A stretch of DNA of 53,338 nucleotides from NCBI GenBank assembly GCA_023954175.1, contig JAMLIM010000018.1, positions 1 to 53,338 of the forward strand, in the 5' to 3' direction. The DNA comes from Rhizobacter sp. (lineage in GTDB: Bacteria; Pseudomonadota; Gammaproteobacteria; Burkholderiales; Burkholderiaceae_C). Positions 4,071 to 35,228 of this stretch are shown here, one piece after another. The translations under genes and the position numbers were made by a program. The first letter of the stretch is position 1. Every line of letters begins with the position of its first letter. Under the pieces are notes generated by a model that was given only the letters and a program-made list of their open reading frames with translations, was not told the DNA's origin and did no database searches.

Positions 4071-4133
4071 GGCGTCTCCTCGGTTTCGATCGGATGATGC
4101 ACGGCTTCGGGGCTGCGGGGCGACAGCATCATG

Positions 4134-16280: not shown

Positions 16281-16479
16281 GGCAATGCTTTCGCAAAGGC
16301 TGTCCAGGGGATATCGGCAGCGGCGGCGGGAACTCAATGCGCCGGCCGCCACGGCGCGCCGCGCGGGTGTGCTGTACGGGTGCGCTGCGAGGGGCGACAC
16401 ACCGGCCCTGCGTGCCTACAATGACCTCGCCGGTCGGCACCTCGGCCGGCCTCACGGGGCCGCATCGACGGAGACCGCC

Positions 16480-16866
16480 TTGGACGTTTCAAGCCGCCGA
16501 TACAACGATGTCGTCGTCGCCACGCCGGCCGGGCGCGTCGATCATGCGAGCGCCGATGCGCTGCAGCAGGCGCTGGCGCCGGCCATGACGGACGCCGGCA
16601 GCGCGGCGCTCGTGCTCGATTTCACGAATGTCGAGTACATCAGCAGCGTCGGCCTGCGCGTGCTGATGATGGCCTCCAAGCAGCTGCGCGGGCGCGAGGG
16701 GCGTATCGCGGTTGCCGCGCTGCAGCCGGTGGTGCGCGAGATCTTCGAGATCGCGCGCTTCCAGCACGTGGTCGAGGTCTTCCCGTCGGTGCGCGACGCG
16801 CTCGCTGCGCTGTCGCCCGCCGCACTCACAGCGTTCGACGCCGGGGCCGGGTCGCCGGCGCCATGA
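16480..16866 (+). CDS. STAS domain anti-sigma factor antagonist
   Basis: The 128-residue protein is a stand-alone STAS domain of the SpoIIAA/RsbV type. It has LVLDFTNVEYISSVGLRVLM near residue 45, with the paired serines at the position phosphorylated by anti-sigma kinases. The start is TTG 16480 (MDVSSRRYND), six bases after a GGAG site. Upstream in-frame ATGs would run back into the cyclase gene. In partner switching the unphosphorylated form binds an RsbW-like kinase and frees its client; a matching kinase gene is at 21177. The stop overlaps the next start as ATGA. Confidence 0.9.
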   Translation: MDVSSRRYNDVVVATPAGRVDHASADALQQALAPAMTDAGSAALVLDFTNVEYISSVGLRVLMMASKQLRGREGRIAVAALQPVVREIFEIARFQHVVEVFPSVRDALAALSPAALTAFDAGAGSPAP

Positions 16867-17822: not shown

Positions 17823-20008
17823 ACGATGCCGACGCCGCGCGGCGCGCGCCCGCCGGCGGCGGCAATGGCAGACCACGCGCCGGCCGGCGCTTCCTCGAAG
17901 GACCCAAGGCACGCCCCGGCAAGAGCGCGATGCGGCGCATCTGGGGCATCGGCCTGCTCGTGCTGCTCGCCCTTGCCGTGCTGCTGTGGTGGCGCACGCC
18001 GTGGGGCGATCGATTGCAGGCCTACAGCTTCGACAGCCTGCAGATCCTCTCGCCGCGCAAGATCGAATCGCTGCCGGTGACGATCGTCGCCATCGACGAC
18101 AAGAGCATTGCCGCGCTCGGCCAGTGGCCGTGGCCGCGCACCGAACTGGCGGAACTGGTGCGTGCCGTCGCCCGCGAGCAGCCGGCCGCGATCGGCATCG
18201 ACGTGCTGATGCCCGAACCCGACCGGCTTTCACCGCAGCGCATGCTCGAACGCGTCGGCGCGCTCGACCCGGCGATCGAGCGCACCGTGCGGGCGCTGCC
18301 GTCGAACGACGCGATGCTCGCGCAGGCGATCAGCGAAGCGCCGGTCGTGCTCGTCGCCGCCGGCGTGCCGGAGGCGACAGGCCGCGCGTTGCACGCGCCG
18401 CCGTTCATCGTGACGGGGTCGGGCTCGCCACCGTTGCCGCACCTGGGCGGTGTCGTGCCCAACATCGAGATGCTCGACGCCAAGGCCGCTGGCCACGGCT
18501 TGATCTCGGTCGAGCCGTCGAACACGATGTTCCGGCGCTTCGCGCTCGTCGCCGACGTCAACGGCACGCTCGCGCCGGCGCTGTCGATCGAGATGCTGCG
18601 CGTCGCGCTCGACGTGCCCGCGCTGCGCCTGCACGTGCGCGGGGATGCGGTGCGCGGCATCTCCGTCGGCAAGGTGTTCGTGCCGACCGAGGCCGACGGT
18701 GCGGTGCGCGTCTACTACTCGCGCGGCGATGCGCGGCGCTATGTGTCGGCGATCGACGTCCTGCAGGGCAAGGCGCCGCCCGATGCGCTGCACAGGAAGC
18801 TCGTGCTGATCGGCCTCACCGGTCTGGGGCTGCGCGACGACTTCCACCTGACCGCGCTCGGCGAGCCGATGCCCGGCAGCGAGATCCACGCCCAGCTGCT
18901 CGAGAACCTGTACGACCAGACGCTGCTCGTGCGGCCCCCCTGGGCGCCGCAGTTCGAGCTCGCCGTCTTTGTTGCGCTCGGCCTGCTGCTGATCTGGTTC
19001 ACCCCGCGCCTCAAGCCCCTCGTCGCCGCCGCCCTCGCGCTTGGCTGCGTGGCGCTCGCGCTCGCCGCCGCCTTCGCCGCGTTTCGCACCGAGCGGCTGC
19101 TGTTCGACGCCACGCCCGGCCTGAGCCTGATGCTCTTCTTCGGCGTGCTGCTGCTGCTGACGCTCGCCGAATCGCGTCAGCGCCGCAAGGCGATGCAGCG
19201 CGTGCTGCAGGAGCAGCGCGAGCGTTCCGCCTACGTCACCGGCGAACTCGAAGCCGCGCAGCGCATCCAGACCGGCCTGCTGCCGGGCGTCGCCGCGCTG
19301 TGCGCCGACGGTCGGGTCGATCTCGCGGCGACGATGACGCCGGCGCGCGAGGTCGGCGGCGATCTGTACGACTTCTTCATGCTCGACGAGCGGCGGCTCT
19401 TCTTCCTGATCGGCGATGTCGCCGGCAAGGGGCTGGCCGCGAGCATGTTCATGGCCGTCAGCAAGGCGCTCGTCAAGAACGCAGCGCTGCGCGCGCCGGG
19501 CGCGGCATCGATCGGCGCGCTGATGACGGCCGCCAACATGGAGATCGGGCGCGACAACGCGGCGATGTTCTTCGTCACCGCCTTCGCTGCCATCCTCGAT
19601 CTGGACAGCGGCGATCTCGACTACTGCAACGCCGGGCACGACAACCCACTGCGGCTGGCGCCGGGCGCCACCGACCTGCAGACGCTGGCCGACGGCGACG
19701 GCCCGCCGCTGTGCGTCGTCGACGGCTTCGAGTACCGCGGCGCACGCGTCCGGCTGCGGCCCGGCGAACTGCTGTGCCTCGCGACCGACGGCGTGTTCGA
19801 GGCGCAGGACGCCGACGCTGCGCTCTATGGCCATGCGCGGCTCGAGGCGATCCTGCTGCGCAGTGATCTGCGCGACGCAGCGTCCGCCGATGTGGTCGCT
19901 GCCGTGCAGGCCGATGTCGCCGCCTTCGCCGGTGACGTCGAACCGGCCGACGATCTGACGCTCGTGTGCCTGCGCTGGAAGGGGCCGCGCGGCAGCGCGA
20001 CGGCCTGA
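17819..20008 (+). CDS. CHASE2 sensor with SpoIIE-type PP2C phosphatase
   Basis: The 729-residue membrane protein begins at GTG 17819. A first helix (IWGIGLLVLLALAVLLWW) lies near residue 40, and a CHASE2 periplasmic sensor covers about residues 60-340 (VTIVAIDDKSIAALGQWPWP). Three further helices lie at about 375-460. A coiled-coil linker (QRVLQEQRERSAYVTGELEA) leads to a PP2C phosphatase domain. The phosphatase metal motifs are EVGGDLYDFF, IGDVAGKGLAASMF, NAGHDNPL and ATDGVFEAQ, and AQRIQTGLLPG is typical of RsbU. It most likely dephosphorylates the STAS protein encoded two genes upstream in response to a periplasmic signal. Confidence 0.93.
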   Translation: MNDADAARRAPAGGGNGRPRAGRRFLEGPKARPGKSAMRRIWGIGLLVLLALAVLLWWRTPWGDRLQAYSFDSLQILSPRKIESLPVTIVAIDDKSIAALGQWPWPRTELAELVRAVAREQPAAIGIDVLMPEPDRLSPQRMLERVGALDPAIERTVRALPSNDAMLAQAISEAPVVLVAAGVPEATGRALHAPPFIVTGSGSPPLPHLGGVVPNIEMLDAKAAGHGLISVEPSNTMFRRFALVADVNGTLAPALSIEMLRVALDVPALRLHVRGDAVRGISVGKVFVPTEADGAVRVYYSRGDARRYVSAIDVLQGKAPPDALHRKLVLIGLTGLGLRDDFHLTALGEPMPGSEIHAQLLENLYDQTLLVRPPWAPQFELAVFVALGLLLIWFTPRLKPLVAAALALGCVALALAAAFAAFRTERLLFDATPGLSLMLFFGVLLLLTLAESRQRRKAMQRVLQEQRERSAYVTGELEAAQRIQTGLLPGVAALCADGRVDLAATMTPAREVGGDLYDFFMLDERRLFFLIGDVAGKGLAASMFMAVSKALVKNAALRAPGAASIGALMTAANMEIGRDNAAMFFVTAFAAILDLDSGDLDYCNAGHDNPLRLAPGATDLQTLADGDGPPLCVVDGFEYRGARVRLRPGELLCLATDGVFEAQDADAALYGHARLEAILLRSDLRDAASADVVAAVQADVAAFAGDVEPADDLTLVCLRWKGPRGSATA

Positions 20009-20042: not shown

Positions 20043-20636
20043 TCAGCGCACGATGATCTCGACGCGCCGGTTGCGCGGCTCGGCCACGCCATCGGCGGTC
20101 GGCACGACCGGCGCGCGCTTGCCGCGCGCGATCGCCTGCACGTTGGCGGCAGGCACGCCAAGCCGGATCAGCTCGCCGCGGATGAAGTCGGCGCGCTGCT
20201 GCGCAAGCGCGTCGTTTGACGCATGGCTGCCGACGGCGTCGGTGTGGCCGACGACGAGCACGTCGGGCACCGGGCGCTGCGCGATCTCTCTGAGCGTGCG
20301 CTCGACCAGCTGGCGCGAGGCATCGGTCAGCACGTCCTTGCCCTCGACGAAGTAGAGCGTGAAGGTCGATGCGCGCGCGGGTTGCGCGGCGAGCGCATCG
20401 CCGTAGCGCGCCTGCACCTCGGCCTCGGTCGTCGTGTAGGTGGTCAGGCCCGTCGCACCGTCGCGCGCCGCCGCGTAGGGCTGGTCGAGCACGACCTGCT
20501 TGTCGCCATGCGTGACGGCGACCGCGCTGCTCTTGCCGCCCGCCTCGGGCAGCAGCACGGCGTTCGTGATCGGCGCGCACGCCGCCAGCAGCGCGAGTGC
20601 CGCAAGCGCGGCGAAGGCACGAAGCGAGCGCTTCAT
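20043..20636 (-). CDS. OmpA-family outer-membrane lipoprotein
   Basis: The 197-residue precursor has a lipoprotein signal with LLAAC, acylated Cys at about residue 20. After a linker it carries a C-terminal OmpA peptidoglycan-binding domain, with FTLYFVEGKDVLT, VVGHTDAVGS and the terminal RNRRVEIIV. ATG 20636 shares one base with the FecR stop (TGATG), so the two are coupled. OmpA-like lipoproteins and FecR-domain proteins often sit beside CHASE2 genes. This pair converges on the CHASE2 phosphatase gene with 34 bases between the stops. Confidence 0.9.
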   Translation of the reverse strand: MKRSLRAFAALAALALLAACAPITNAVLLPEAGGKSSAVAVTHGDKQVVLDQPYAAARDGATGLTTYTTTEAEVQARYGDALAAQPARASTFTLYFVEGKDVLTDASRQLVERTLREIAQRPVPDVLVVGHTDAVGSHASNDALAQQRADFIRGELIRLGVPAANVQAIARGKRAPVVPTADGVAEPRNRRVEIIVR

Positions 20637-21079
20637 CAATCGACGCTGACGGCGAACTCGGTGCCGCGCGCGCCGAGCACGGCGGTCGGCGTGCGCACCG
20701 TCATCGCGTCCGGCGCCTGCTTGGCGATGCGCCCGGAGACGACGACGAGCGTGCCCTTGTTGAGCGCGGCGTCGAAGCGCCCCTGACTCGTCGCCGGGTC
20801 GAGCGCGTAGTGTTCGAGCACGAGGACGCTGTTCGGTCCGGCCGAGAGCAATGAGTCGTCGTTCATCGTGATGCCCGCCGAGCCGTTGGCGCCGGTGCGC
20901 AGTATGTCGGCCGCCTGCAGCCGCAGCCCGACGGTGCCGGGCAGGGTGGCGCCGGCGCGCTCGATGTTGACCTCGCCGCGCGACACCTTGATCTGGCCGA
21001 TATCGGCTGCCAGGGCCGATGCGTAGAGCCCTGCGGTGACGGCAGTTGCGAGGGCGATGCGGGCGAGGCGTCTTGTCAT
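20636..21079 (-). CDS. FecR-domain periplasmic protein
   Basis: The 147-residue precursor has a signal peptide (ARIALATAVTAGLYASALAA) and a single FecR domain. The domain starts GQIKVSRGEVNIERAG and ends VRTPTAVLGARGTEFAVSVD. Such short secreted FecR proteins lack the cytoplasmic anti-sigma part of true FecR. They are thought to act as periplasmic ligand or scaffold proteins, often with CHASE2 sensors. ATG 21079 is chosen; the frame to 21178 extends into the divergent gene's promoter region. It heads a two-gene operon with the OmpA-type lipoprotein. Confidence 0.87.
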   Translation of the reverse strand: MTRRLARIALATAVTAGLYASALAADIGQIKVSRGEVNIERAGATLPGTVGLRLQAADILRTGANGSAGITMNDDSLLSAGPNSVLVLEHYALDPATSQGRFDAALNKGTLVVVSGRIAKQAPDAMTVRTPTAVLGARGTEFAVSVD

Positions 21080-21176
21080 GTTGGCTCCGTAGGCATGAAA
21101 CCGCCGCGAAGGCGGCCGCCTAGAATACGCCGAAGCCCCAGACGCCGCCACCCTGCGGCGTGCCCCTCGCACCCGC

Positions 21177-21635
21177 ATGACGACCTCTCCTCAAGCGCCG
21201 CACGGCGAACGAAGGGTGTTCACGGCGCGCCTGGCCGCGCTGCCGGAGACGGCGGACTTCGTGCGGGAGTTCTGCGCGCGCGAGCACATTGCACATCCGG
21301 TGGCGCTGCGCCTGACGCTGGTGGTCGAAGAGCTGTTCACGAACACCGTCACCCACGGCCATGGCGGCGACTGCGGTGCGACGATCGTCATCGGCTTGTC
21401 GGCTGCGCCGACCCGCGTGAGGCTGGGCTATGCCGACGCCGCGCCGCGCTTCGATCCGCGCCCGTGCCTTCGCACACCGCCCGAGAGCCTGAGCGCGCCG
21501 GCTGCGGCGCGGCCGGCAGGCGGGCTCGGCCTGCATCTGGTCGGGCAGATGGCGTCGCGCGTTCGTTACGCATACCGGGGCGGCAACCGGCTCGCGCTGA
21601 CGCTCACCATCAAGGACGGCAACCCCGGCGCTTGA
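21177..21635 (+). CDS. RsbW/SpoIIAB-like anti-sigma serine kinase (HATPase)
   Basis: The 152-residue protein has a GHKL ATPase fold without a histidine phosphorylation domain. The N-box is LTLVVEELFTNTVTHG near residue 50, and the G2 region is PAGGLGLHLVGQMA near residue 115. The usual DxGxxFDP part is altered to YADAAPRFDPRP, so nucleotide binding may be atypical. In partner switching such kinases phosphorylate the STAS antagonist and hold a sigma factor or other target. No sigma factor gene is adjacent. TAGAAT at 21121-21126 could be the -10 of this gene. Confidence 0.87.
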   Translation: MTTSPQAPHGERRVFTARLAALPETADFVREFCAREHIAHPVALRLTLVVEELFTNTVTHGHGGDCGATIVIGLSAAPTRVRLGYADAAPRFDPRPCLRTPPESLSAPAAARPAGGLGLHLVGQMASRVRYAYRGGNRLALTLTIKDGNPGA

Positions 21636-24152: not shown

Positions 24153-24371
24153 ATGAATTCCATGCGCCAACCCAAACTCCACGCCTGCGCCGCGATCGCA
24201 GTGCTCCTCCTGACCGGCTGCACCTCGCGCGAGATCTACGACGCATCGCAGGGCTGGCGGCGCAACGAGTGCAACAAGATCGCCGAGCAGGAAAAGCGCG
24301 ACCGATGCCTGAAGGAAGAGGCTGGCCGCTCCTACGACGACTACCGCGCGGCTTCGCAAGTCTCGCGCTGA
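24153..24371 (+). CDS. Small hypothetical lipoprotein
   Basis: The 72-residue precursor has a short signal sequence ending in the lipobox LLTGC, with the acylated Cys at residue 23. A mature part of about 50 charged residues follows, with two further cysteines (NECNKIAEQEKRDRCLKEE) that could form a disulfide. No family is recognised. Its stop is 14 bases before the thioesterase start, and the Shine-Dalgarno of that gene begins at this stop, so the two are probably one transcript. Confidence 0.7.
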   Translation: MNSMRQPKLHACAAIAVLLLTGCTSREIYDASQGWRRNECNKIAEQEKRDRCLKEEAGRSYDDYRAASQVSR

Positions 24372-24385
24372 AGGAGGTCAAGGAC

Positions 24386-24790
24386 ATGGACGAACTCGCA
24401 TCCCTGCAGCAGCGTCTCGCGCCGCTGTTCCCCGGCCTCATGGGCCTGCAGCTGACCGAGCTCGGGCCCGAGCGCGTGACGGCGACGCTGCGCGTGCGGC
24501 CCGATCTGTGCACCGCGGGCGACATCCTGCACGGCGGCGCGGTGATGGCGTTCGCCGACACGCTCGGCGCGGTCGGCACCTTCGTCAACCTGCCGCCGGG
24601 TGCGCGCACGACGACCGTCGAATCGAGCACCAAGTTTCTCGCCGCGGCGCCGGTGAACTCGACGGTGACGGGCGAATGCACCGCGTTTCACCGCGGCCGC
24701 ACGACGATGGTGTGGCAGACAATGGTGCGCACCGAAGCCGGCAAGCTGTGCGCGGTCGTGACGCAGACGCAGCTCGTGATCGCGGGCTGA
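24386..24790 (+). CDS. PaaI family hotdog-fold thioesterase
   Basis: The 134-residue protein is a single hotdog domain. It has PDLCTAGDILHGGAVMAFAD near residue 40, the helix-capping segment of PaaI-type acyl-CoA thioesterases. VESSTKFLAAAPVNSTVTGE follows later. Such enzymes hydrolyse aryl- or acyl-CoA and often prevent CoA from being trapped during aromatic catabolism. ATG 24386 is set by a strong AAGGAGG site eight bases upstream. The longer frame from 24119 runs through the small lipoprotein gene and is rejected. Confidence 0.88.
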   Translation: MDELASLQQRLAPLFPGLMGLQLTELGPERVTATLRVRPDLCTAGDILHGGAVMAFADTLGAVGTFVNLPPGARTTTVESSTKFLAAAPVNSTVTGECTAFHRGRTTMVWQTMVRTEAGKLCAVVTQTQLVIAG

Positions 24791-24866
24791 GGCGCCGCCA
24801 GCGGTCGCGCGCGCCGCGTGACCACGTCGGCACCACCGCGAAGCCGGAGCGACAGCGCGTCGGTGC

Positions 24867-26105
24867 TCAGTCGAAGCGTTCGTCGCCGTTCGGCTCGTAG
24901 TGCGGCACGGCGTTCATCTCGTGGCGCAGCTTCGACAGCTCGTAGTACATGCGGCGGCGCGCACGGCTCTGGTTGCCGAGCGGGCGGTGCTCGGCGATGC
25001 AGTGCCAGGGGTTGTAGGACAGCCGCTTGGCGAAATCGAGCTGCGCCGGTGAATCGAAGGTCTGGCGCGGAATGCGCAGCGTCGCGACCGGCACGCGCGG
25101 CGACAGCCGCTCGGGCCAGAGCACGCCGGCGTTCTCGATCGGCATCAGGTGCGGGTCGGTCTGCAACTGCAGCCGCAGCTCGAGTTCGACGTCGCCCTCG
25201 GCAAGCGCCTGGACCATCGCGAGGCGCAGGTAGTCGTCCGGCGGGCGCAGCGGCAGGCGCGGGATCGGCGTGCGCCGCCGGCTCTTGGGCCAGACCGAAT
25301 ACTGCATCGCCTGCCCTTCGCCCAGCAGGTAGGGCACGCAGCTGAAGTACGGCGCCTCGAACGGGCTGCTCTGCGTCTTGATGAACAGCCCCTGCATGAT
25401 GCCGTCGAGCAGGTGCGGGCGGTGCAGGTTGACGAAGTAGAAGATCGACGCGTTCTTCAGGCTCTCCTTCTGCAGCTGCGCGTTGTCGCGCACGTCGCGC
25501 GTGACGAAGGTCGGCGGCGAGACGCCGAACATGTCCTGCGTGAACTGCTCCTCGTCCATCAGCTTGGGCCCCGGCACGCCCATCAGCTTGATGCTGATGC
25601 TCATGAAGCCGACGTCGTCGATGTCCGGCGTCACGTACGGCCCCGGACCGGAGAAGCGCACCCAGGCGCGGTAGCTGCGCGGGGTGGCGAAGATGCCGCG
25701 GCGCATCGGCTCCGGCAGGTCGTCGTGCACGATCAGTTCGGCGCGCACGATGCCCTGCGTCTTCGTGTTGCCGCCGCGCTCGAAGCCGCCCGGCTTCCAC
25801 AGCAGGCGCATCTGCGCGCGAAAGCTTTCGATGATCGAATCGACACAGGCTTCCTCGTCGGGCAGCAGGCGTTCCTCGGCCAGCGCCAGATTCTCGAGCG
25901 GCCGCTGCCAGTTGATCAGCGCCGTCACGCCGCGCGCGAGCGGATCGCGCAAGGTCGCGTCGAACAGCGGGCGAAAGAGCGGATCGATGCGACGCTCGAG
26001 CTGGATCAGCTTCAGCGACGCGTCGGAGATGAAGTTCAGCAGCGCCGAACCGGTGTTCGCCGGCGGCACCGGGCGGCTGGTGTTCGAGTTTATCGCGCCC
26101 TCCAT
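24867..26105 (-). CDS. Catalase-fold heme protein (y4iL-like), apparently without the distal His
   Basis: The 412-residue protein shares the catalase-superfamily pattern VRAELIVHDDLPEPMRRGIF, RSYRAWVRFSG, FMSISIKLMGV and the C-terminal SYNPWHCIAEHRPLG. It belongs with the small catalase-like group typified by rhizobial y4iL. By my manual alignment, the place of the distal catalytic His (HAKG in relatives) reads NTKT at residues 113-116, so ordinary catalase activity is doubtful. A peroxide- or hydroperoxide-rearranging role, as in catalase-fold allene oxide synthase, is one possibility. There is no signal peptide. It is the last gene of the six-gene operon, 8 bases after the DyP peroxidase. 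Confidence 0.82.
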   Translation of the reverse strand: MEGAINSNTSRPVPPANTGSALLNFISDASLKLIQLERRIDPLFRPLFDATLRDPLARGVTALINWQRPLENLALAEERLLPDEEACVDSIIESFRAQMRLLWKPGGFERGGNTKTQGIVRAELIVHDDLPEPMRRGIFATPRSYRAWVRFSGPGPYVTPDIDDVGFMSISIKLMGVPGPKLMDEEQFTQDMFGVSPPTFVTRDVRDNAQLQKESLKNASIFYFVNLHRPHLLDGIMQGLFIKTQSSPFEAPYFSCVPYLLGEGQAMQYSVWPKSRRRTPIPRLPLRPPDDYLRLAMVQALAEGDVELELRLQLQTDPHLMPIENAGVLWPERLSPRVPVATLRIPRQTFDSPAQLDFAKRLSYNPWHCIAEHRPLGNQSRARRRMYYELSKLRHEMNAVPHYEPNGDERFD

Positions 26106-26113
26106 CGTTCGGT

Positions 26114-27571
26114 TCAGCCCAACGCGGCCAGGACCCGCAGCGCGCGCAGGCCGGGCAGGAAGAAGTAGGCGCCACCCCGGACGGTGACGAACTGCGGCAG
26201 CATGTCGAGGCGCCGCGCGGGGCCGAGCGGCTGCGGGATCGAGAACGCATCGGTGGCGCTGCCGTCGCGTGCGGCTTCGCGATTGCCGAGCAGCGGGTCG
26301 CTCTCGCCGCTCAGGCCGTCGAAGTGCGCGCCGGCGATCCACGCCGCCTGCACGAACTCGAACTGGCGGCCGATGCTCGCGTTCAGGCAGACGAAGTGCA
26401 GCCCCTGCTCGCCGGCACCGTGCTCGCCGTATTCGCGTCCGCGCCGCAGCAGCCGATGAAAGCGCGTCGACGCCACCAGGTCCTGCGCCAGCGCGTCGGC
26501 GTCGAAACCGAGCGTGCGCATGGCCCACGACACCAGGCCCGGCGTGCCCGGCGGCAGGTCGGCATTGCGCGGATTGGCGCGCCGCACGTGCGCGCCGAGC
26601 GGGCAACGCACGCCGTACGGGTCGTCGCGGTAGGTAAACGCATTCAACGCGTCGGCCGGGTCGTTGCCCTCGATGGGGGTGCGGCTGACGGCGGCGAGCG
26701 GCTCGCCGTTCACCCTGCGGCCGACCATCGCTTCGGCGAGCTGCCGGCCGCCGGCCGCATCGCCGCCGGCGAAGTGCGTCAGGGCCTGCCAGAAGCCGTC
26801 CACGTCCTGTCGCAGCTGGCGCAGCACGAGGTAGCTGCCGTTGCGGCCGAGGTCGGCGCGCGCGGGCGCTTCCTCGGCGCGCGGCAGCCCGGCGGCGGCA
26901 CCGTGCGGGTCGAGCAGCGGCCGGTCCGTGTAGGCGCCGTATTCGTTCGGATAACCGAGCACGAATTCGCCCAGGCAGGCGAGGTTGGTGTAGTCCTGCA
27001 GCTCCACATCGCGCGCCGGCCGCGTGCGCTGCCAGTCGAGCGCCGGTTGCGAGATGCCATCGGCGAAGCCGAACGGCTCGGTGTCACTCAGGTGGCTGGG
27101 CAGGCGCGCGATGATCTCGAAGCCGGCCGCGATGCCTTCCTCGATGCCGCGCTGCCAGTCGGCCAGCGCCCCGGGCAGCGCATACAGCAGCAGCGCCACG
27201 TGCGGCAGCCGCGCCTGCGAACCCCAGTCCCAGCCCCCGGGCGCGTTGCTGCCGATGTCGCCGAGGCGGCGCTCGCGGCTCGGGTTGCCGCTCATGCCGT
27301 CGACGAACTCGACCGAGAAGCCGCCGACGACGGCGTCGGGAGTCCCGAGCGCGCGCAGGCCGGCACTGCTCAGCGCGACCTGCAGCACGACCGGCGGCGG
27401 CTCGGCCAGCGTGGCGGCGCTCGCCACCGGCGCCGCGGCGAGCCAGCGGCGCGCGGCGTCGCGGTCGGTGATGCGCAGCAACAGGAAGCAGGCTTCGGCA
27501 TGGCGCCCGTAGCCGAAGCGCAGCAGGCCCTGCATGTCGTCGAGCTCGACGTTGATGGCGGCATCGCTCAC
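26114..27571 (-). CDS. DyP-type heme peroxidase
   Basis: The 485-residue protein has the DyP hallmarks. FGFADGISQP at residues 167-176 contains the catalytic Asp (GxxDG). NGSYLVLRQLRQDVDGFW lies near 244, and GAHVRRANPR holds the proximal heme His at about residue 328. DyP enzymes use hydrogen peroxide to oxidise bulky aromatics and some act on lignin units. No signal peptide or encapsulin-targeting tail is seen, so it is probably cytoplasmic. Translation starts at GTG 27571, eight bases after GGAGGG. It lies between the membrane protein and the catalase-like gene in the six-gene operon. Confidence 0.92.
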   Translation of the reverse strand: MSDAAINVELDDMQGLLRFGYGRHAEACFLLLRITDRDAARRWLAAAPVASAATLAEPPPVVLQVALSSAGLRALGTPDAVVGGFSVEFVDGMSGNPSRERRLGDIGSNAPGGWDWGSQARLPHVALLLYALPGALADWQRGIEEGIAAGFEIIARLPSHLSDTEPFGFADGISQPALDWQRTRPARDVELQDYTNLACLGEFVLGYPNEYGAYTDRPLLDPHGAAAGLPRAEEAPARADLGRNGSYLVLRQLRQDVDGFWQALTHFAGGDAAGGRQLAEAMVGRRVNGEPLAAVSRTPIEGNDPADALNAFTYRDDPYGVRCPLGAHVRRANPRNADLPPGTPGLVSWAMRTLGFDADALAQDLVASTRFHRLLRRGREYGEHGAGEQGLHFVCLNASIGRQFEFVQAAWIAGAHFDGLSGESDPLLGNREAARDGSATDAFSIPQPLGPARRLDMLPQFVTVRGGAYFFLPGLRALRVLAALG

Positions 27572-27629
27572 TGGACGACCCTCCGCAGTTCGTGCTCCGC
27601 GATTCGCGCTTGGGAGCGGCCCGGCGCGC

Positions 27630-28928
27630 TCACAGCAACCTCAGCCAGGCGAGCGCCTGCGTGTCGCTGATGCGCGCCCGCTCCAGGCCGGCGCGGATGC
27701 GTCCCGCGCGCTCCAGATCGGTCAGCGTCAGCCCGGCGTAGGCCATGTACCAGACCTGCGTCGGTACCTGATGCCGTCGCTGGTAGCGCTTGAACAGCAA
27801 CTCGCGCCGCGCGCCGCGCTTGACCAGCCAGTCGGTGCGCGGCCAGCCGACGCCATTGCTGAACAGGATGTTGAGTCCCCAGCCGACCTTGTTGATGAAG
27901 TCGTCCATGTAGGCCTCGTGGCTGCCGTCGTAGTTGCTCACGAACGCGACGCGCGATTTGCCGTCGAGGAACACCCAGCGCGCAAAGTGGATCGTCTGGA
28001 TGCGCGTCAGGTGGCCGCGATTGAAGATGTGCCGGCACGCGTAGTCGGCCGCCAGCAGCAGCACGGTCAGCAGCCAGCGGCGGAAGACGCCGGGCTTGAC
28101 CGCGCCGATCGCGGTGAACTGGTTCGTCGGGTCGTGATCCTCGATGCGCTGCAGCGCGAGCAGCGCCGCCGGATCGAGCGCGGGACAGAATTCGGGATCG
28201 CTGCGCTCGTGGCGGCGCAGCAGCACGATCAATAGCGGCGCGAGCAGGATCAGGAACGGCAGCGCGACGAGGGCGAGCAGCGGCACGCCGAACAGGTGCA
28301 AGGCGTTCCCGATCTGCCAGCCCAGCGGCGTCGACGCCGGTGGCGTCAGGCGCAGGCGGCCGGCCTGCTGCTCGCTGGCGACGAACTGCGCCAGTTCGCC
28401 GCGCAACTGCTGGGCCGCCTGCGGCGATGGCGCGACATCGCGTGCAACGCGCGTTGCCAGCGCGCGCCACAAGGCATGCTCCTCGCGCACCTGGCGCACC
28501 GTGCGGCCGCGGCGGCAGGCGTAGAAGGTGGCGACCGGCACGTCGTGCGCGAGCATCCAGGCCAGCAACTCGGTGCCGGCGCCGAAGCCTTCGCAGTGCT
28601 CGAACAGGCGCCGCAGGCCGGTGCCGGCACGCTGCGCCATGTCGCCGAGCACGTCGCGCGCCACGCCGTCGCAGTCGCCCATGAAGACGAGCACCGTCGG
28701 CAGCCGCGGCGGCGTGACGCCGTGCACCGCGAGGTCGGCCATCATGCTGTCGTCGAGCAGCACGAGGCGCGCGAAATGCAGCTGCTCGAAGTCACCGAAC
28801 GGGAGCACCGCGTTGTGCGGATCGGCACGGCCGGGCAGCGTCGTCATCGAGTCGAGCAGCGCGCGCAGCGACGCCTCCCGGCCCGCGGCCAGCGGGGCCA
28901 CGATCGTGAACGGCGACTGCGGCGTCAC
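27630..28928 (-). CDS. Unknown membrane protein with duplicated domain
   Basis: I do not recognise this 432-residue protein. It consists of two related soluble domains around a hydrophobic centre. The first copy, about residues 48-115, has LHFARLVLLDD, then LVFMGDCDG and LRRLFEHCEGFG. The second, about 311-362, has IHFARWVFLDG, then VAFVSNYDG and LNILFSNGVGWP. Between them is a long hydrophobic hairpin at about 206-237, with another at 284-296. The repeat pattern could be a ferredoxin-like half of the dimeric alpha-beta barrel fold that DyP peroxidases also use, but that is inference. The start is GTG 28928, and 16 bases separate it from the upstream gene. Confidence 0.75.
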   Translation of the reverse strand: MTPQSPFTIVAPLAAGREASLRALLDSMTTLPGRADPHNAVLPFGDFEQLHFARLVLLDDSMMADLAVHGVTPPRLPTVLVFMGDCDGVARDVLGDMAQRAGTGLRRLFEHCEGFGAGTELLAWMLAHDVPVATFYACRRGRTVRQVREEHALWRALATRVARDVAPSPQAAQQLRGELAQFVASEQQAGRLRLTPPASTPLGWQIGNALHLFGVPLLALVALPFLILLAPLLIVLLRRHERSDPEFCPALDPAALLALQRIEDHDPTNQFTAIGAVKPGVFRRWLLTVLLLAADYACRHIFNRGHLTRIQTIHFARWVFLDGKSRVAFVSNYDGSHEAYMDDFINKVGWGLNILFSNGVGWPRTDWLVKRGARRELLFKRYQRRHQVPTQVWYMAYAGLTLTDLERAGRIRAGLERARISDTQALAWLRLL

Positions 28929-28944
28929 GCCCGGCTCGCAGGGC

Positions 28945-29376
28945 TCAGAACTGCAGGCAGAAGTGGATCAGCCGGTCCTTGTCCCAGTACACCTGACCGA
29001 GGTAGAAGTTGGGACCGATGAGCCGGATCTCGTCGCGCACGCGGCGCGCGAGAAGCGAAGTCTCGGAATAGTCGAGGACGATGCACTCCTTGTTGTCGAG
29101 CCAGCTCGGCGCCTTGTAGACGCGGGCGAGGATCGCCTCCAGCCCGATCACGAGGATGCGGTTCTTCAGCACGCCCTTCTTCGCGTCGAACACCTTGCCC
29201 TGCCAGCCAAAGTGGTTGATGAGCTCGGCGATCGTCTCGCTGATCTTGGTCCCCGGCGCGATGATCGCCGTGCCCTTGGCGGCACCGTCCGGGATGTCGC
29301 CCGCCGGGCTTGCCTTGAAAAGTTCGTCGAGCTGCTCTGCCGACATGTCCAGCAGTTGTGCTGCGTCATAGGCCAT
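28945..29376 (-). CDS. Unknown 143-aa protein of the peroxidase operon
   Basis: The start at ATG 29376 is fixed by a GGAGG site just upstream. The N-terminal third is polar (MSAEQLDELFKASPAGDIPD). The rest has alternating hydrophobic patterns ending VLDYSETSLLARRVRDEIRL and then PNFYLGQVYWDKDRLIHFCL. That shape resembles small lipocalin-like or GXWXG-type beta-barrels, in which a ...GxYLG... strand precedes the C-terminus. I cannot assign a family. There is no signal peptide. A ligand-binding role for the operon's substrate is a guess from size and neighbours. Confidence 0.7.
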   Translation of the reverse strand: MAYDAAQLLDMSAEQLDELFKASPAGDIPDGAAKGTAIIAPGTKISETIAELINHFGWQGKVFDAKKGVLKNRILVIGLEAILARVYKAPSWLDNKECIVLDYSETSLLARRVRDEIRLIGPNFYLGQVYWDKDRLIHFCLQF

Positions 29377-29420
29377 GGTTTCCTCCTTGTGCGGTTGCCC
29401 GCTGTGAACGAGATGGGGTG

Positions 29421-31277
29421 TCAGTGCGGCGCATGTTCGGGTGCCGATCGCAGGATCGTGTCGGCCGCCTTCTCGGCGACGATGTAGACCGCGCTGGCGA
29501 TGAAGAAGCCCGGTATGCGCGGGAACACCGAGGCGTCGACGACGCGCAGCCTGCGCGTGCCGTGTACCGCGAAATCGCTGCCGAGCACGCCGCCGTCGGC
29601 CTGCGCCCCGATCGCGCAGGAGCACGACGCGTGATGGCCCCAGGCGGTGTCGCGCACGTAGTCGCGCAAGGCCTGTTCGCCCTGCACGCCGGGGCCGGGC
29701 AGGATCTCCTCGGCGATCACGCCGCGCTCGATCAGCGGCGCGCAAAGCCGCCGCACGAACGTGATCGCCTGCGCGACCGCGCGCAGGTCGGCGGCGTCGG
29801 GGTCGTCGTCGGCGTCGAAGCAGTTGAAGTCGATGCGCGGCATCGCGCGCGGGTCGGCGGAAGCGAGGCGCACCGTGCCGGCGCGGTTGCGCGTGTGGGC
29901 CTTCAGCACCGCCCAGGTGAGCCGGTCGTCGTGGTCGCGGATCAGCGACGAGAAGCCGGGGAAGTAGCCTTCGAAGCGCGCCGGCAGCGCCATGCAGAAG
30001 ATGTCCGGCTCCGGCAGCGCGGGGTCGGATTTGCGGATCAGGCCGATCGCGGCGCCGCTCGACGCGTACATGCCGTCGCGTGACGCGTTCCACGCCTGCC
30101 ACAGCGCATCGCCGCGCTCGTAGCGCGCGCCGGCCAGCACCTCCCAGGGCCGGCGCATGCGGTGCGTCACCGCGACCTCGTAGCGGTCCTGCAGATTGCG
30201 GCCGACGCCGGGCAGGTCGACGCGCAGCGGCAGCGCGTGCTCGCGCAGCGCGGCTGCCGGCCCGATGCCCGACAGCATCAGCAACTGCGGGCTGTTGAAG
30301 GCGCCGCCGCAGAGGATGACCTCGCGTCGCGCCCGCACTTCGCGCCGTTCACCGGGCTGGCCGCTCGGCTGCGCGTGGGCGCCGTAGAGCCGTTCGCCCT
30401 TGAGGAACTCGACGCCGCTGGCCGCGCCCTCGGCATCGAACAGCACCCGCGTCGCGAGCGCGTCGAGTTCGATGTGCAGCCGCTGCGGATGCGCCGCCTT
30501 TGCCTGCAGCAGGCGCTCGCGCGCGCCGACGCGGCCGTGGTTGCGCGTCGCCAGCGGCGTGTAGCACAGGCCCTCGAAGCTGCCGCGCCCGGCCGGCTTG
30601 GCGTTCGGGTCGCCCTTGCCGCGCAGCCAGCGCAGCGCACTCGCGAGCGGGTGCGGCAGGGTCTTGACGAAGGCGCGCGAGGTGCCGGTGACGAGCGCCA
30701 CCATCTCCTCGTCGCCGAGCGCTTCCAGCGGCATCGCCTGCTCGACGTCGAGCCAGCCGTCCCAGCCGTGGCCGGTGGGGTCGATGCCGATGCGGCGCAG
30801 CGCGCGCCACAGCGGGCGATGCCGGCAGGCCTCCACGCGGCGCGCGAAGACGCGCATGCGCTTCGCGCGCCACGACGGGTCGCCGGTACGCAGTGCGATG
30901 TCGTCCCAGTCCGACTCGTGCGGCCTGACGAAGATCATCGCGTTGTGCGCGGTGCAGCCGCCGAGCGCCGCAGCGCGCGGATAGAGCACGCCGACGCCGG
31001 GGCGATACTTCGGGTCACGCGCCTGGCGCGCCTCGTCGGCGTAGTGGCGCACCTGGAAGTTCCAGCTCATCGCCGGGTTCTCACAGGCGAAGGCGTGAAA
31101 GCCCGGCACCTCGTAGTCCTCCGGCAGGCGCGCGGCAGACGACGCCTGCGGGTCGCCGCCCGCTTCGAGCACGCACACCCGCATCCCGGCCTCGACCAGC
31201 CGCGCCGCCAGCGTGCCGCCTGCTGCGCCCGAACCGACGATCACGTAGTCCCATTCGGTTGCCTCGGCGTCGGCCAT
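29421..31277 (-). CDS. GMC family FAD-dependent oxidoreductase
   Basis: The 618-residue flavoprotein begins with the dinucleotide-binding motif DYVIVGSGAAGGTLAARLVE. The GMC signatures follow: LYPRAAALGGCTAHNAMI, GAFNSPQLLMLSGIGPAAAL and the C-terminal HHASCSCAIG with the catalytic His region. GMC enzymes oxidise alcohols, sugars, sterols or cholines, passing electrons to oxygen, quinone or a cytochrome. No twin-arginine or Sec signal is visible. The gene is 10 bases after the large cytochrome gene. A functional pair is likely by operon logic, although the two products appear to be in different compartments. Confidence 0.92.
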   Translation of the reverse strand: MADAEATEWDYVIVGSGAAGGTLAARLVEAGMRVCVLEAGGDPQASSAARLPEDYEVPGFHAFACENPAMSWNFQVRHYADEARQARDPKYRPGVGVLYPRAAALGGCTAHNAMIFVRPHESDWDDIALRTGDPSWRAKRMRVFARRVEACRHRPLWRALRRIGIDPTGHGWDGWLDVEQAMPLEALGDEEMVALVTGTSRAFVKTLPHPLASALRWLRGKGDPNAKPAGRGSFEGLCYTPLATRNHGRVGARERLLQAKAAHPQRLHIELDALATRVLFDAEGAASGVEFLKGERLYGAHAQPSGQPGERREVRARREVILCGGAFNSPQLLMLSGIGPAAALREHALPLRVDLPGVGRNLQDRYEVAVTHRMRRPWEVLAGARYERGDALWQAWNASRDGMYASSGAAIGLIRKSDPALPEPDIFCMALPARFEGYFPGFSSLIRDHDDRLTWAVLKAHTRNRAGTVRLASADPRAMPRIDFNCFDADDDPDAADLRAVAQAITFVRRLCAPLIERGVIAEEILPGPGVQGEQALRDYVRDTAWGHHASCSCAIGAQADGGVLGSDFAVHGTRRLRVVDASVFPRIPGFFIASAVYIVAEKAADTILRSAPEHAPH

Positions 31278-31287
31278 GTGCGCTCGT

Positions 31288-33825
31288 TCAGAACGTCTTC
31301 AGGAACGCGATCAGCGCGCGCTTGTCGTCGTCGCTCAGCGCCGGCTCGGTGCCGAACGACTTCTCGTCCTCGGTCAGCCCGTCCTGCCGGTTGAACTGCT
31401 CGGTGCCGAAGTAGTGGCCGCGGTTGACGATGAGGTCGGGGCACTTGCTCAGCGCGAGCATCGGCTCGCGCAGGCTCGAGAAGTGCTGGCGCAGTTCTTC
31501 GTCGCTCGCTTCGGCCGGCGCCGATGCCAGGTTGATCTTGAGCTTCAGCGCGAACTCTCCCATGGTCTTGACGAACGCCACCTGCTCCGAGAGATCGTCG
31601 CTTTCGGAGCGCAGCTTCAGGTTCGCGAGCAGGCCGACCGGCGTGTCCTTGGGCACCGGGCCGAGCGTGATGTCGCCGCCGGCGTCGACCAGCCAGGGCA
31701 GCAGGCGATGCGCCCAGCCCTGCAGCGGCTGCAGCGCCTCGGGCACGAAGCCGACCGGAATCGTCACCCAGCTGCGCTCGGTGGTGCGGTCGATCATGCC
31801 CGGCACCTTTTCGCCGAACTTGGCGTCGTGTTCACGCTTCTCGGGCCACAGCATCTGCTCGATCGAGGCGTCGAACGACTTCATGCGGCTCGCGACCGAC
31901 GGGTCGGGGTCGAAGGGGCCGACGGTGTTGGCGAGCATGAACGGCGCGCTCGACCACAGCGCGATCAGGGACGGCACGCGCGTGTAGCCGCGCCCGCCGG
32001 CCGGCATCTTGTAGGCAAACGGCGCGCCGTCGAACGGGTCGTACATCGTCAGGCTGCCGACCGAGGGCAGTTGCTTGTACGACTGCGACGAGAAGTTGTC
32101 CCAGATGTTGCCGCCGATCGCGTTCGTCGCCAGCGGGCTGCAGGCGTTGGTGCGCAGCAGCGTCACCGGGATGCGCGCGTCGGACGACAGGTAGTTGCCC
32201 TGCAGGAAGTCGCTCGCGTGGACGACCTCGCGCATCTGCGCCTTGAACTCGTCGCTCTGCGTCCATTTCCAGTAGCGCTTGAAGCAGGCGAGGTAGTTCG
32301 CGCCGGCGCAGTTCTCCGGCTTCAGCTCGAGCGACGCGGGCGGGCGCGGCCCCTTGCTCGAGTGGCAGCGCGCGCAGGTGTTCGCGAACACGTCCTTGCC
32401 GTGCTCGACCATCGCCGCATCGGCGTCGAGATAGCGCTCGCCGCCCGGTGCGTCCTTCAGATGGTCCGGCTGCGCCGCCTTCAGGAAGAACAGCGCCGTG
32501 TTCGGCGTGCCGGCCTCGGTCGCGTTCCAGTACGTCGAGTTCTTCTGCGCGTCGGCGATGCGGATCGGCGTGATCGTCTTGCCGCCGACGATCGGATTGA
32601 AGTGCAGCAGCCACTCCTCGCTGAAGAGACCGATGTTCACGTAGACGCGGTTGAGCGCGCCGAGCAGGCCGACCGAGTCGGCGCCGTCCTTCAGCACGTG
32701 CGGCGTCATCACCGTCGACGTTGCCTTGTCGAAGAACTCTGTCAGCGGCCCTTCCTTGATGAAGTCGTTGAACTGCTTGTTGTCGAGTTCGCCGCCGGCG
32801 AGCTTCTCGTGCCACAGGCGTTTGGCCATGCCCATGCGTCCGACGAAGTCGTAGACCGAATTCATCGTGCGCGGATTGTTGATGCTGTCGGTCGAGACGA
32901 GCGAGGTGTCCATCGTGCCGGGCCGGAACGTGTGCGCCAGCTGGTACATGAAGTTCCTGCGGCCTTCGGGCTTGTTCGAGTCGACGATGAAGAGGCGATC
33001 GACCCACATGTACTGCGCGCCGACCGACGAGCTCAGGTTGGCGAACTTCGGATGCTCCGGGTCGTCCGGCGGCTTCACCGGGCTTGGGCCGACGTGGCAG
33101 AAGCCGCACGACATGCCGACGCGGTACGGGCGCACCAGATCCTTGCGGTTGTAGTACGCCGGGTCGGTGTAGTAGCGCTCGGCGTCCCAGGCCTTGGCCG
33201 CCTTCTCGTCGAAGTCGGGGTTCGGGAACAGGCGCAGGCCGATGATGCCGGTCGCGTAGCCGTAGTAGGAGCCCACCGGCTGCGTCGTGCCGTCGCCGAG
33301 CGGCTTGCCGCGCGCGCCGATGACGACGCCGGGGTACTTCTTCTCGTTCTCGAACGGGTCGGGCGCGCACTCCTTGCTGCGCACGTCGAGCCACAGGCCG
33401 CGGCGGTTCGGGTCCGGCCCGCTCGCCTTGTCGAAGCAGGGTTCGTTGATCAGGCCCAGATAGGCCCAGCGGTTCTCGCGCGAGAAGCCGAGCGACGGGT
33501 GCGAACTGATCATCTTCAGCAGGTCGAACGCGCCGAAGGTGAAGTCGCCCATCTGGTTCCAGAAGCGGTCGTTGCCGCCGCTCCAGACGATCCACATGTT
33601 GCGGCCCTTGATCTCCTCCGGCGTCAGCGCGGGCGCGCCATCCATGTCGTGGAAGTAGTCCTCGTCGGCATGCGGGAACGAGGCCGCGTCGCGGCCGGCG
33701 AGCTTGGCTTCGTCCATCACTTCGCCGGGCCCGGGCTTGCCTGAGCAGGCCACGAGCAGCATCGGCGCCAGCGCGAGCGCCGCAGCCTTGATGATTCGAA
33801 ATTTCGCAGGGAGCGAGGCCTTCAT
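31288..33825 (-). CDS. Large di-heme cytochrome c lipoprotein
   Basis: The 845-residue precursor has a signal with lipobox LLVAC (Cys 27) and two c-type heme sites, CGFCH at residues 240-244 and CARCH at 484-488. The two heme regions are about 240 residues apart, as in di-heme peroxidase/MauG/RoxA-like proteins rather than in small electron carriers, and the protein is larger than typical members. ATG 33825 follows a strong AGGAGG. It is the first gene of the six-gene operon. It may accept electrons from the GMC enzyme or be an oxygenase or peroxidase itself. A link to RoxA-type polymer oxygenases is only a size-and-layout analogy. Confidence 0.85.
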   Translation of the reverse strand: MKASLPAKFRIIKAAALALAPMLLVACSGKPGPGEVMDEAKLAGRDAASFPHADEDYFHDMDGAPALTPEEIKGRNMWIVWSGGNDRFWNQMGDFTFGAFDLLKMISSHPSLGFSRENRWAYLGLINEPCFDKASGPDPNRRGLWLDVRSKECAPDPFENEKKYPGVVIGARGKPLGDGTTQPVGSYYGYATGIIGLRLFPNPDFDEKAAKAWDAERYYTDPAYYNRKDLVRPYRVGMSCGFCHVGPSPVKPPDDPEHPKFANLSSSVGAQYMWVDRLFIVDSNKPEGRRNFMYQLAHTFRPGTMDTSLVSTDSINNPRTMNSVYDFVGRMGMAKRLWHEKLAGGELDNKQFNDFIKEGPLTEFFDKATSTVMTPHVLKDGADSVGLLGALNRVYVNIGLFSEEWLLHFNPIVGGKTITPIRIADAQKNSTYWNATEAGTPNTALFFLKAAQPDHLKDAPGGERYLDADAAMVEHGKDVFANTCARCHSSKGPRPPASLELKPENCAGANYLACFKRYWKWTQSDEFKAQMREVVHASDFLQGNYLSSDARIPVTLLRTNACSPLATNAIGGNIWDNFSSQSYKQLPSVGSLTMYDPFDGAPFAYKMPAGGRGYTRVPSLIALWSSAPFMLANTVGPFDPDPSVASRMKSFDASIEQMLWPEKREHDAKFGEKVPGMIDRTTERSWVTIPVGFVPEALQPLQGWAHRLLPWLVDAGGDITLGPVPKDTPVGLLANLKLRSESDDLSEQVAFVKTMGEFALKLKINLASAPAEASDEELRQHFSSLREPMLALSKCPDLIVNRGHYFGTEQFNRQDGLTEDEKSFGTEPALSDDDKRALIAFLKTF

Positions 33826-34153
33826 CGAATCCTCCTGTCCGAGCACCGTGCCAGCCGGGGTCGCGACGTCATGCCCGTTGTGCGGCGTCATTGCGATGCC
33901 GACGAACACGTGCTCTCAAAACTCGAAGCCCCAGTTTGCTACCGAATTTCCTTGTCGGGGCCTGTGGACCGGCCCGACCCCCCTAGGTTCAAGCGCCGAA
34001 AGCGCTCCCAATTTCGGGTCGTGAAAGGATGGGTCGGCAAAGCCCGTCAACCGGGCCCGATGACACGCTCAGCGATCCGACGCAGACGCGCGAGCCACCG
34101 CGTGCGCCATGCGATGGCGCGAATGGTCGAGCGCGATGGGTCCGGTGTGTACG
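33826..34153. other. Intergenic region upstream of the cytochrome-peroxidase operon
   Basis: These 328 bases lie between the first codon of the large cytochrome gene and the stop of aroQ; both are transcribed leftwards. The promoter of the six-gene operon should be here. Somewhat AT-richer bases occur around 33918-33953, but I find no convincing sigma-70 or sigma-54 pair, no T-rich terminator and no ORF with coding character. Confidence 0.5.
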
Positions 34154-34597
34154 CTAGAGATCGGCGAGCGCGCGGATCGCGAGTGCGTAGCCGGCAACGC
34201 CGAGGCCGACGATCACGCCGCGCGCGACGGGCGAGATGTACGAGTGGTGGCGAAACGCCTCGCGCGCATGCACGTTGCTGATGTGCAGTTCGATCACCGG
34301 CACGCCGGTGCCCTTGATCGCGTCGTGCAATGCGATCGAGGTGTGCGTGTAGGCACCGGCGTTGAGGACGACGCCGGCGAGCGTGCCGGCCGCGTGCCCC
34401 TGGCCGGCCTCGTGAATCCAGTCGACGAGCACGCCTTCATGGTTCGATTGGCGAAAGTCGAGCGCAAGGCCGTGCGCGCCGCAGGCCTCGCGGCAGAGCG
34501 ACTCGACATCGGCCAGCGTCTGCGCGCCGTAGACGGCGGGTTCGCGCATCCCGAGCAGGTTCAGGTTCGGGCCGTTCAGGACGAGGGCGGTCTTCAT
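34154..34597 (-). CDS. aroQ: Type II 3-dehydroquinate dehydratase
   Basis: AroQ converts 3-dehydroquinate to 3-dehydroshikimate in the shikimate pathway. The 147-residue length and motifs are standard: NGPNLNLLGMREPAVYG with the catalytic Tyr, NAGAYTHTSIALHDAI, and ELHISNVHAREAFRHHSYIS with the catalytic His. ATG 34597 begins MKTALVLNGPN; the longer frame adds an unrelated leader. It stands alone here rather than beside accB/accC, where aroQ often sits. Confidence 0.96.
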   Translation of the reverse strand: MKTALVLNGPNLNLLGMREPAVYGAQTLADVESLCREACGAHGLALDFRQSNHEGVLVDWIHEAGQGHAAGTLAGVVLNAGAYTHTSIALHDAIKGTGVPVIELHISNVHAREAFRHHSYISPVARGVIVGLGVAGYALAIRALADL

Positions 34598-34646
34598 GGT
34601 GCGGTCTTTCGGATCGGGTGGGGGCGGGTGCGGTGCTCGCGCGCGC

Positions 34647-35228
34647 TCAGAGTTTCGCGCGGCTGCTGCGTGAGCGGAACAATTCGGCGATGCCGACCTC
34701 GCGCGGGCCCGGCACGAGCGTGAAGCGCTCACCCGCGCGCAGCGTGCCGGGCTTGCGCACCGCGAGATAGAAGCCGCACCAGCCGTTCGTCACCATCAGC
34801 TTCATGGCCTGGTTGAAGCCCATCACGGCGTTGAGCTTGAAGCACGGGAAGCGCGGCTCGCTGATCGCCAGATCACAGTCGGCGAATCGCAGCACATCGC
34901 CGACCCAGGCCTGGGATTCGAGCAGGCCCGAGAGCGTCAGGTTCTCTCCCAGGAAGCCGCTCGGCAGCGGCGCCTCCCAGGCCGAGACGCGGGCCTGCGC
35001 GCGCACCGTCTGCCAGAACGCGTAGTGCTCGCTCGGGTAGGCATAGACCGCCTTCGACAGGCCGCCGTGCACCGACAGGTCGGCCTGCTCGTCGCCCTCG
35101 AGGCCGAGCATGCGTACGCTGACGGGGCCTTCGACGCTGCGCTTGCCGATGCCGCTCATCACGCCGCGGCCATCGACGTCGATCTCGCGCGCGAGGCTGA
35201 CGTTGACGCTGAGGACTTGTCCGCTCAT
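34647..35228 (-). CDS. MOSC domain protein (YiiM-like)
   Basis: The 193-residue protein has the MOSC features GLEGDEQADLSVHGGLSKAV and FLGENLTLSGL. It also has RFPCFKLNAVMG, with the conserved Cys that binds molybdenum cofactor or carries sulfur. YiiM-type MOSC proteins detoxify N-hydroxylated bases. ATG 35228 is used; GTG 35234 is an alternative. It is divergent from modE and shares the short region containing a ModE-like operator, which fits molybdenum-dependent control. Confidence 0.88.
   Translation of the reverse strand: MSGQVLSVNVSLAREIDVDGRGVMSGIGKRSVEGPVSVRMLGLEGDEQADLSVHGGLSKAVYAYPSEHYAFWQTVRAQARVSAWEAPLPSGFLGENLTLSGLLESQAWVGDVLRFADCDLAISEPRFPCFKLNAVMGFNQAMKLMVTNGWCGFYLAVRKPGTLRAGERFTLVPGPREVGIAELFRSRSSRAKL

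Follow-up and report, generated by a model that had tools for sequence, protein, structure and literature searches.

What unites three proteins of heme-enzyme families, a flavoprotein, and two proteins without recognizable family in one compact bacterial operon? The question arises from a Rhizobacter sp. contig (JAMLIM010000018.1, assembly GCA_023954175.1), of which we analyzed a stretch of 53,338 nucleotides (nt), hereafter the window. Between positions 24867 and 33825, six tightly spaced open reading frames (ORFs) on the minus strand encode a di-heme cytochrome c, a GMC flavoprotein, two proteins that we call S143 and U432, a DyP peroxidase, and a catalase-fold protein, Cat. An earlier note on this DNA had described six closely spaced minus-strand genes with gaps of 8 to 57 bases; the arrangement stands, while the gaps, computed from the cytochrome to Cat as 10, 44, 16, 58, and 8 nt, span 8–58 nt. 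The reading we favor, at a probability of roughly 40%, is that of a two-module operon whose second module, Cat-U432-DyP, would act at the inner membrane on a substrate of hydrophobic nature, through peroxide-driven, oxylipin-like chemistry.

The locus is a conserved gene set that is also present in a distant phylum, the Verrucomicrobia. In profile searches, all six families are found together in three Verrucomicrobia loci (L022, L024, and L025, with the cytochrome of L024 divided between two frames), while five families, without GMC, are found in two further Verrucomicrobia loci (L020, L021), Sulfuricella sp. T08 (L029), and Sulfuriferula multivorans (L026). Over 5 kb separate the cytochrome and Cat in both L029 and L026, and fewer families are present in L023, L027, and L028, which are cut or short loci. 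Gene order varies, as Cat precedes U432 in these relatives and follows DyP in the window; the order DyP then Cat recurs in L101, whose contig ends within DyP. Because relatives of all six families co-occur in other genomes, we conclude that the grouping is not due to chance, and the proposal of the earlier note that the six genes form one set is borne out by their being neighbors across genomes. Within the order, we surveyed 300 genomes, that of the window included, and found relatives of U432 in 7, of DyP in 13, of Cat in 14, and of the cytochrome in 17.

Within the second module, U432 (27630–28928; 432 aa, GTG start) is closely linked to DyP. When 84,980 species genomes were scanned with an alignment of U432, 443 stretches were obtained, of which 423 are confirmed relatives. 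In the best 80 of these 423, which were selected by U432 alone, DyP is encoded on the same strand within 400 nt in all cases (80/80), a count that overstates the number of independent events since 48 of the 80 loci carry Mesorhizobium titles. The two proteins share one open frame in 69 of the 80 loci, and a fused form is carried by Novosphingobium aromaticivorans DSM 12444. In the reverse test, a DyP relative was seen in 12 other genomes of the order, and in 10 of them a U432 match lies no more than about 1 kb away, although two of these ten (L111, L112) had their own stretches in the U432 profile, tblastn having first found them at 26–28%. The DyP relative of G119 has no U432, while that of G144 sits at the start of its contig, where its neighbor cannot be judged.

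The third member of this module is not constant. Among 97 U432 loci (the window included, two genomes counted twice, and four loci chosen by DyP), the partner is a cytochrome P450 in 77 and a catalase-fold protein in 14; none has both, and six have neither (L011, L018, L079, L135, L136, and L027, which is cut by a contig end). The P450 is encoded in one frame with U432 in 67 of 80 loci, and the resulting P450-U432-DyP proteins are annotated as cytochrome P450 or Dyp-type peroxidase domain-containing protein. Judging by these sequences, the catalase-fold and P450 partners appear to replace each other beside DyP-U432. In 12 of 14 aligned partner P450s, the position that we take to be that of the I-helix acid is occupied by Pro, with the Thr kept, while the P450 of L012 has neither acid nor Thr. 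A pattern allowing Pro, Glu, Asp, or Gln at this position matched 71 of 92 loci and returned only Pro in them. This replacement suggests that the partner P450s use peroxide rather than O2. Among the neighbors of the P450 form are a cyclase-TPR gene family, present in 59 of 80 loci, and a family of CRP-type regulators, present in 54 of 80; each family was named from one representative.

For U432, the AlphaFold2 model built from 29 sequences (pLDDT 85.9) shows a long helix (residues 202–243) between two halves of beta-alpha-beta-beta-alpha-beta topology, and no stretch in any of the six proteins is more hydrophobic than the one at its hydropathy peak (2.98 at residue 219). U432 is predicted to be a membrane-anchored, tandem ABM-like alpha/beta barrel; it has no Pfam or NCBIfam match, and hence no recognizable ABM sequence profile. 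The N-terminal half has a His within the motif (I/L)H(F/V) in all seven rows of alignment A1 that cover it (12 rows in total), and His314 of the C-terminal half is invariant in alignments A1 and A5. The top Foldseek matches are modest: WhiE-ORFI (9lmn) at an E-value of 3.8e-6, with TM-scores of 0.40/0.46 and a root-mean-square deviation of 8.2, and the polyketide decarboxylase Abx(+)O (9ltx) at an E-value of 1.6e-4, with TM-scores of 0.33/0.60. These matches could also indicate secondary-metabolite tailoring, in which U432 would act as an ABM/SchA-type oxygenase or decarboxylase, together with DyP and P450 or Cat, on an aromatic polyketide-like compound, and both P450 and GMC enzymes are common in tailoring pathways. 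We consider this explanation unlikely, however, as no polyketide synthase is found in the 10 window flank ORFs scanned or in the scanned neighbor proteins of relatives, and U432 contains a transmembrane-like helix.

Cat (24867–26105; 412 aa), like S143 and U432, has no Pfam match at E-values up to 0.1, the catalase model PF00199 included, and no NCBIfam match. Its assignment to the catalase fold comes from profile comparison and from its relatives. With hhalign, alignment A6 matches nine proteins that are above the PF00199 cut-off with a probability of 98.6 (E-value of 1.2e-15, 281 columns), and alignment A4 does so with an E-value of 3.1e-10; among ten catalase-like relatives, L103 scores above the PF00199 cut-off and L013, L019, L102, and L110 below it. 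Arg383-x3-Tyr387 corresponds to the proximal RxxxY heme ligand motif and is invariant in A6, as are Arg110, Arg150, and Arg394. In the coral catalase-related allene oxide synthase (AOS), R64, R102, R360, and Y353 hold the heme, while T66, H67, and N137 are distal (PMC5617202). From spacing and alignment, we equate the former with R110, R150, R394, and Y387 of Cat and the latter with G112, N113, and S196, a pattern from which we infer that Cat binds heme.

The distal side of Cat is altered consistently. In the profile alignment, the distal His of catalases is replaced by Asn113 and the distal Asn by Ser196. Asn occupies the distal His position in 12/12 matched loci (10 distinct proteins) and in the window, or 11/11 proteins of the clade, whereas the His is kept in 6/6 outgroup relatives in A6; two of the outgroup (L102, L103) also lack the distal Asn. 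An ordinary catalase is encoded separately in the window genome (G000:C58). Two further catalase-like regions were seen among the relatives. A protein of 396 aa adjoining the six-gene set of L022 (L022:6916–8106) has no Pfam match and by eye resembles a second catalase-fold protein, and in G238 a single frame of 1,023 aa (L104:8427–11498) combines a region with 34% identity to Cat with the N and C domains of LodA, an L-lysine epsilon-oxidase.

The product of 26114–27571 (485 aa, GTG start) is a DyP-type peroxidase with intact motifs and predicted activity. It scores 32.8 bits against Dyp_perox_C (cut-off of 20) and 79 bits against TIGR01413, under the cut-off of 100.5, and its closest solved relative by sequence is 8re3 (E-value of 5.8e-37). 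The N-terminal model PF04261 finds no DyP in the window genome even though one is present, which reflects a limit of the model. The motifs are GFADG at 168–172 with Asp171, the heme His328, and RRG at 376–378, which we take to provide the catalytic Asp, the proximal heme ligand, and the distal Arg; the Asp and His positions are conserved across a 15-sequence alignment. Among 45 DyPs placed in a tree, those of the window, Sulfuricella, Sulfuriferula, and Verrucomicrobia, L027 included, form one set of nine with full support (100/100), while the DyPs of a small-catalase trio in Agrobacterium and G056 are placed elsewhere, suggesting that a catalase-fold partner may have been acquired on more than one occasion, with the caveat that the tree has several long branches and its deeper forks are unsure. 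To our knowledge, the physiological role of bacterial DyPs remains an open question.

Intact DyP motifs, the predicted membrane anchor of U432, and the ordinary catalase elsewhere in the genome, which leaves room for an organic-peroxide specialist, would all suit an operon that detoxifies hydroperoxides and protects membranes from them. Such a role would require neither a GMC enzyme nor a di-heme cytochrome, Cat lacks the distal residues of catalases, and the usual neighbors of the P450 form are a cyclase and a CRP-type regulator; we therefore regard peroxide or lipid-peroxide defense as improbable.

The first module comprises the cytochrome, S143, and the GMC flavoprotein. The cytochrome (31288–33825; 845 aa) carries two CXXCH motifs and no more, CGFCH (residue 240) and CARCH (residue 484), both of which are kept throughout the seven-sequence alignment A3. 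Its N-terminus carries, by eye, a lipoprotein-type signal (LVAC), so that the protein looks like an exported di-heme lipoprotein. Cytochrome c models of Pfam match only short stretches around the second heme motif. The RoxA-like model PF21419 has no match in the window cytochrome; one relative (L022:1–2637) passes its cut-off with a C-terminal stretch (27.6 vs. 26.7 bits), and the other relatives fall below it. RoxA itself (4b2n) is matched only at an E-value of 0.027 across 25 residues.

S143 (28945–29376; 143 aa), whose family and fold we could not place, shares 55–66% identity with six Verrucomicrobia copies. At an E-value of 1e-5, its relatives among the 300 genomes of the order are confined to the window genome; in the stretches fetched from the 16 other cytochrome-bearing genomes, however, a relative lies alongside the cytochrome in 12, those with no match being G003, G063, G193, and G126 (a 4.3-kb contig). 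Counted over cytochrome loci, duplicates included, S143 accompanies the cytochrome in 21 of 26. As most of the 12 genomes have no DyP and Cat nearby, S143 is tied to the cytochrome rather than to DyP and Cat. The earlier note had proposed checking whether the two unplaced proteins occur only with DyP and catalase-like genes; U432 is indeed tied to DyP, and S143 is not. The same 12 genomes also contain F11, a second protein with two CXXCH motifs (L026:4048–5721, L105:4013–6025, L108:11406–13553, and others), and the S143 form in L026 is longer and lipoprotein-like. A structure model of S143 from a seven-sequence alignment was useless (pLDDT 40). The sole Pfam match at E-values up to 10, DUF4944 (E-value of 0.095, one of seven members), was taken as chance, and a resemblance to GXWXG/DUF4334 proteins, noted by eye, found no support.

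The GMC protein (29421–31277; 618 aa) scores well above cut-off for both GMC_oxred_N (PF00732, 79.5 bits) and GMC_oxred_C (PF05199, 88.9 bits). His549 aligns with the catalytic His of 5/5 solved GMC enzymes, while Phe592 sits where all five have His or Asn, at what we take to be the second catalytic position; Phe is found there in 5/5 aligned cytochrome-linked GMCs, that of the window included. Oxidase activity is therefore doubtful and production of H2O2 by this enzyme less likely, which speaks against the earlier idea that the GMC enzyme makes the peroxide used by DyP. A scheme in which catalase removes that peroxide is likewise unsupported, as Cat lacks the distal His and the GMC protein the second catalytic residue. 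In L100 (G193), a GMC gene lies beside the cytochrome with no match to U432, DyP, Cat, or S143 within 19.9 kb, the pair being adjoined by a protein with below-cut-off alpha/beta-hydrolase matches. Since the cytochrome occurs apart with S143, or with GMC as in L100, we view the operon as a cytochrome module joined to a DyP module.

Oxidation of a lipid or polymer, as the earlier note envisaged, may still be the pathway, with nothing in our findings pointing specifically to lignin. That the exported cytochrome, helped by GMC and DyP, cleaves a polymer of rubber-like or lignin-derived type is the least probable alternative and quite doubtful, for although the cytochrome is of an exported di-heme type with one relative above the RoxA-like cut-off, and DyPs are reported to be able to oxidize lignin constituents (PMC11561623), DyP and Cat have no export signals by eye and the window cytochrome matches neither PF21419 nor more than a short piece of RoxA.

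In the two-module reading that we favor, the exported cytochrome, its small partner S143, and the GMC flavoprotein would work outside the cytoplasm, oxygenating or oxidizing a lipid-like substrate and carrying electrons away. Cat-U432-DyP would be one form of a widespread DyP-U432-X module, with either a P450 or a catalase-fold protein as X. U432 would anchor the complex and hold the substrate in its ABM-like barrel, DyP would use H2O2 or an organic hydroperoxide for one-electron oxidations, and X, here Cat, would rearrange or cleave the hydroperoxide in the manner of the catalase-related and CYP74-type enzymes of oxylipin pathways. The formation of a complex, its location in the cell, the substrate class, and the order of reactions are all putative parts of this scheme. 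L014/L029, L024, L025, L105, and, by profile, L138 encode patatin-like proteins close to the cytochrome or in the interval from GMC to the cytochrome, and an oleate hydratase and a 3-hydroxyacyl-CoA dehydrogenase lie beside the Agrobacterium trio. Such patatin, oleate hydratase, and hydrolase neighbors are suggestive of a lipid substrate without being proof of one. The lipoxygenase model PF00305 has no match in the window genome, but it also matched none of 14 controls.

Several observations weigh against this reading, in addition to the predominance of Mesorhizobium and the DyP of G119 already mentioned. The hydrophobic substrate is putative, and the nearest solved folds of U432 are polyketide proteins that would fit an aromatic substrate equally well. 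GMC is absent from most relatives, and DyP and Cat have by eye no export signal, unlike the cytochrome, so that the two modules may occupy different compartments. The P450 of L030 keeps Glu-Thr. The direct sequence match between Cat and coral AOS is weak (E-value of 0.007, 60 residues), and a search of the PDB with the A4 profile found neither catalase nor coral AOS; its only match, to a stretch of isocitrate dehydrogenase (E-value of 4e-4), was taken as false. Finally, no sigma-70-like promoter match is found in 24300–34700, a weak test at about 70% GC.

The gene set is assembled from known enzyme families, and its unusual part is the interchange of catalase fold and P450. As a possible but still doubtful extension, DyP-U432-X may be an undescribed bacterial peroxide-driven synthase, in which the membrane-anchored ABM barrel couples DyP to a heme enzyme that processes hydroperoxides and is interchangeable, being either a P450 without the I-helix acid or a catalase-fold protein with the distal His replaced by Asn. 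Such a counterpart of oxylipin synthases could make lipid signals; its usual neighbors in rhizobia are a cyclase and a CRP-type regulator. The titles and abstract openings that were searched, with preprints and most subscription journals outside their range, describe no DyP-ABM-P450 or DyP-ABM-catalase system. If correct, this reading would give a function to the U432 family, which is adjacent to DyP in every collected U432 locus and whose tested member lacks a Pfam or NCBIfam match, and would provide a bacterial case of a catalase fold and a P450 swapping at one pathway position. It can be tested in N. aromaticivorans DSM 12444, a non-pathogenic bacterium of the laboratory, as a carrier of the fused form.

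In AOS chemistry, P450s and catalase-fold enzymes fill one role in different lineages. An account of the coral enzyme likewise reports that allene oxides are produced by catalase-related enzymes and by unrelated P450s (PMC5617202). Cat shares with the coral catalase-related AOS and hydroperoxide lyase the catalase fold and equivalents of the heme-coordinating Arg residues and proximal Tyr, but it has Gly, Asn, and Ser in place of Thr66, His67, and Asn137 and is not fused to a lipoxygenase. Fungal dioxygenase-P450 fusions and plant CYP74 enzymes similarly pair a heme oxygenase or peroxidase-type domain with a P450 acting on hydroperoxides, whereas here DyP is joined to an ABM-like membrane domain and the chemistry is proposed. 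With the P450-U432-DyP proteins of Rhizobiales and others, the window shares U432 and DyP in the same order; in those proteins, the P450 replaces the catalase fold, usually within one polypeptide and often with the cyclase and CRP-type regulator adjacent. The predicted tandem alpha/beta barrels of U432 recall ABM/SchA-like proteins such as WhiE-ORFI and Abx(+)O, from which U432 differs in the hydrophobic helix between its halves, its link to DyP, and the lack of a Pfam match. RoxA-type rubber oxygenases and di-heme cytochrome c peroxidases are likewise exported-type c-type cytochromes with two heme motifs, but the window protein has 845 aa, no PF21419 match, and S143 as a partner, with a second two-CXXCH protein elsewhere.

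Upstream of the operon, a type II dehydroquinase gene on the same strand ends at 34154, leaving a minus-strand leader of 328 nt (33826–34153) before the cytochrome, with GGAGG immediately 5′ of the ATG. We regard this leader as a putative promoter region only because of the gap there. Downstream, a 4HBT thioesterase gene on the plus strand points at the operon. None of the PADLOC defense models matched any of the six proteins at an E-value of 0.01, and an anti-phage system was dropped as a candidate for this reason. A conflict or toxin island, prompted by a CHAT protein, nucleases, a RES/Xre pair, or an alpha-amylase, was also set aside; the neighbors differ between loci. On a Rhizobium leguminosarum plasmid (L011:585–13316), a U432-DyP protein lies amid a CHAT protein, nuclease-type genes, and a heparin lyase-like gene, while in Sulfuriferula (L015), the DyP module is flanked by a large DUF6603 protein, with an alpha-amylase farther away (3677–6928 and 15812–17854, respectively). 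In the window, an ORF with a FecR domain (20636–21178) lies about 4 kb from the operon and a CHASE2-SpoIIE protein (17819–20008) about 5 kb from it, and a FecR domain is also found near the Sulfuricella copy (L014:14329–15618).

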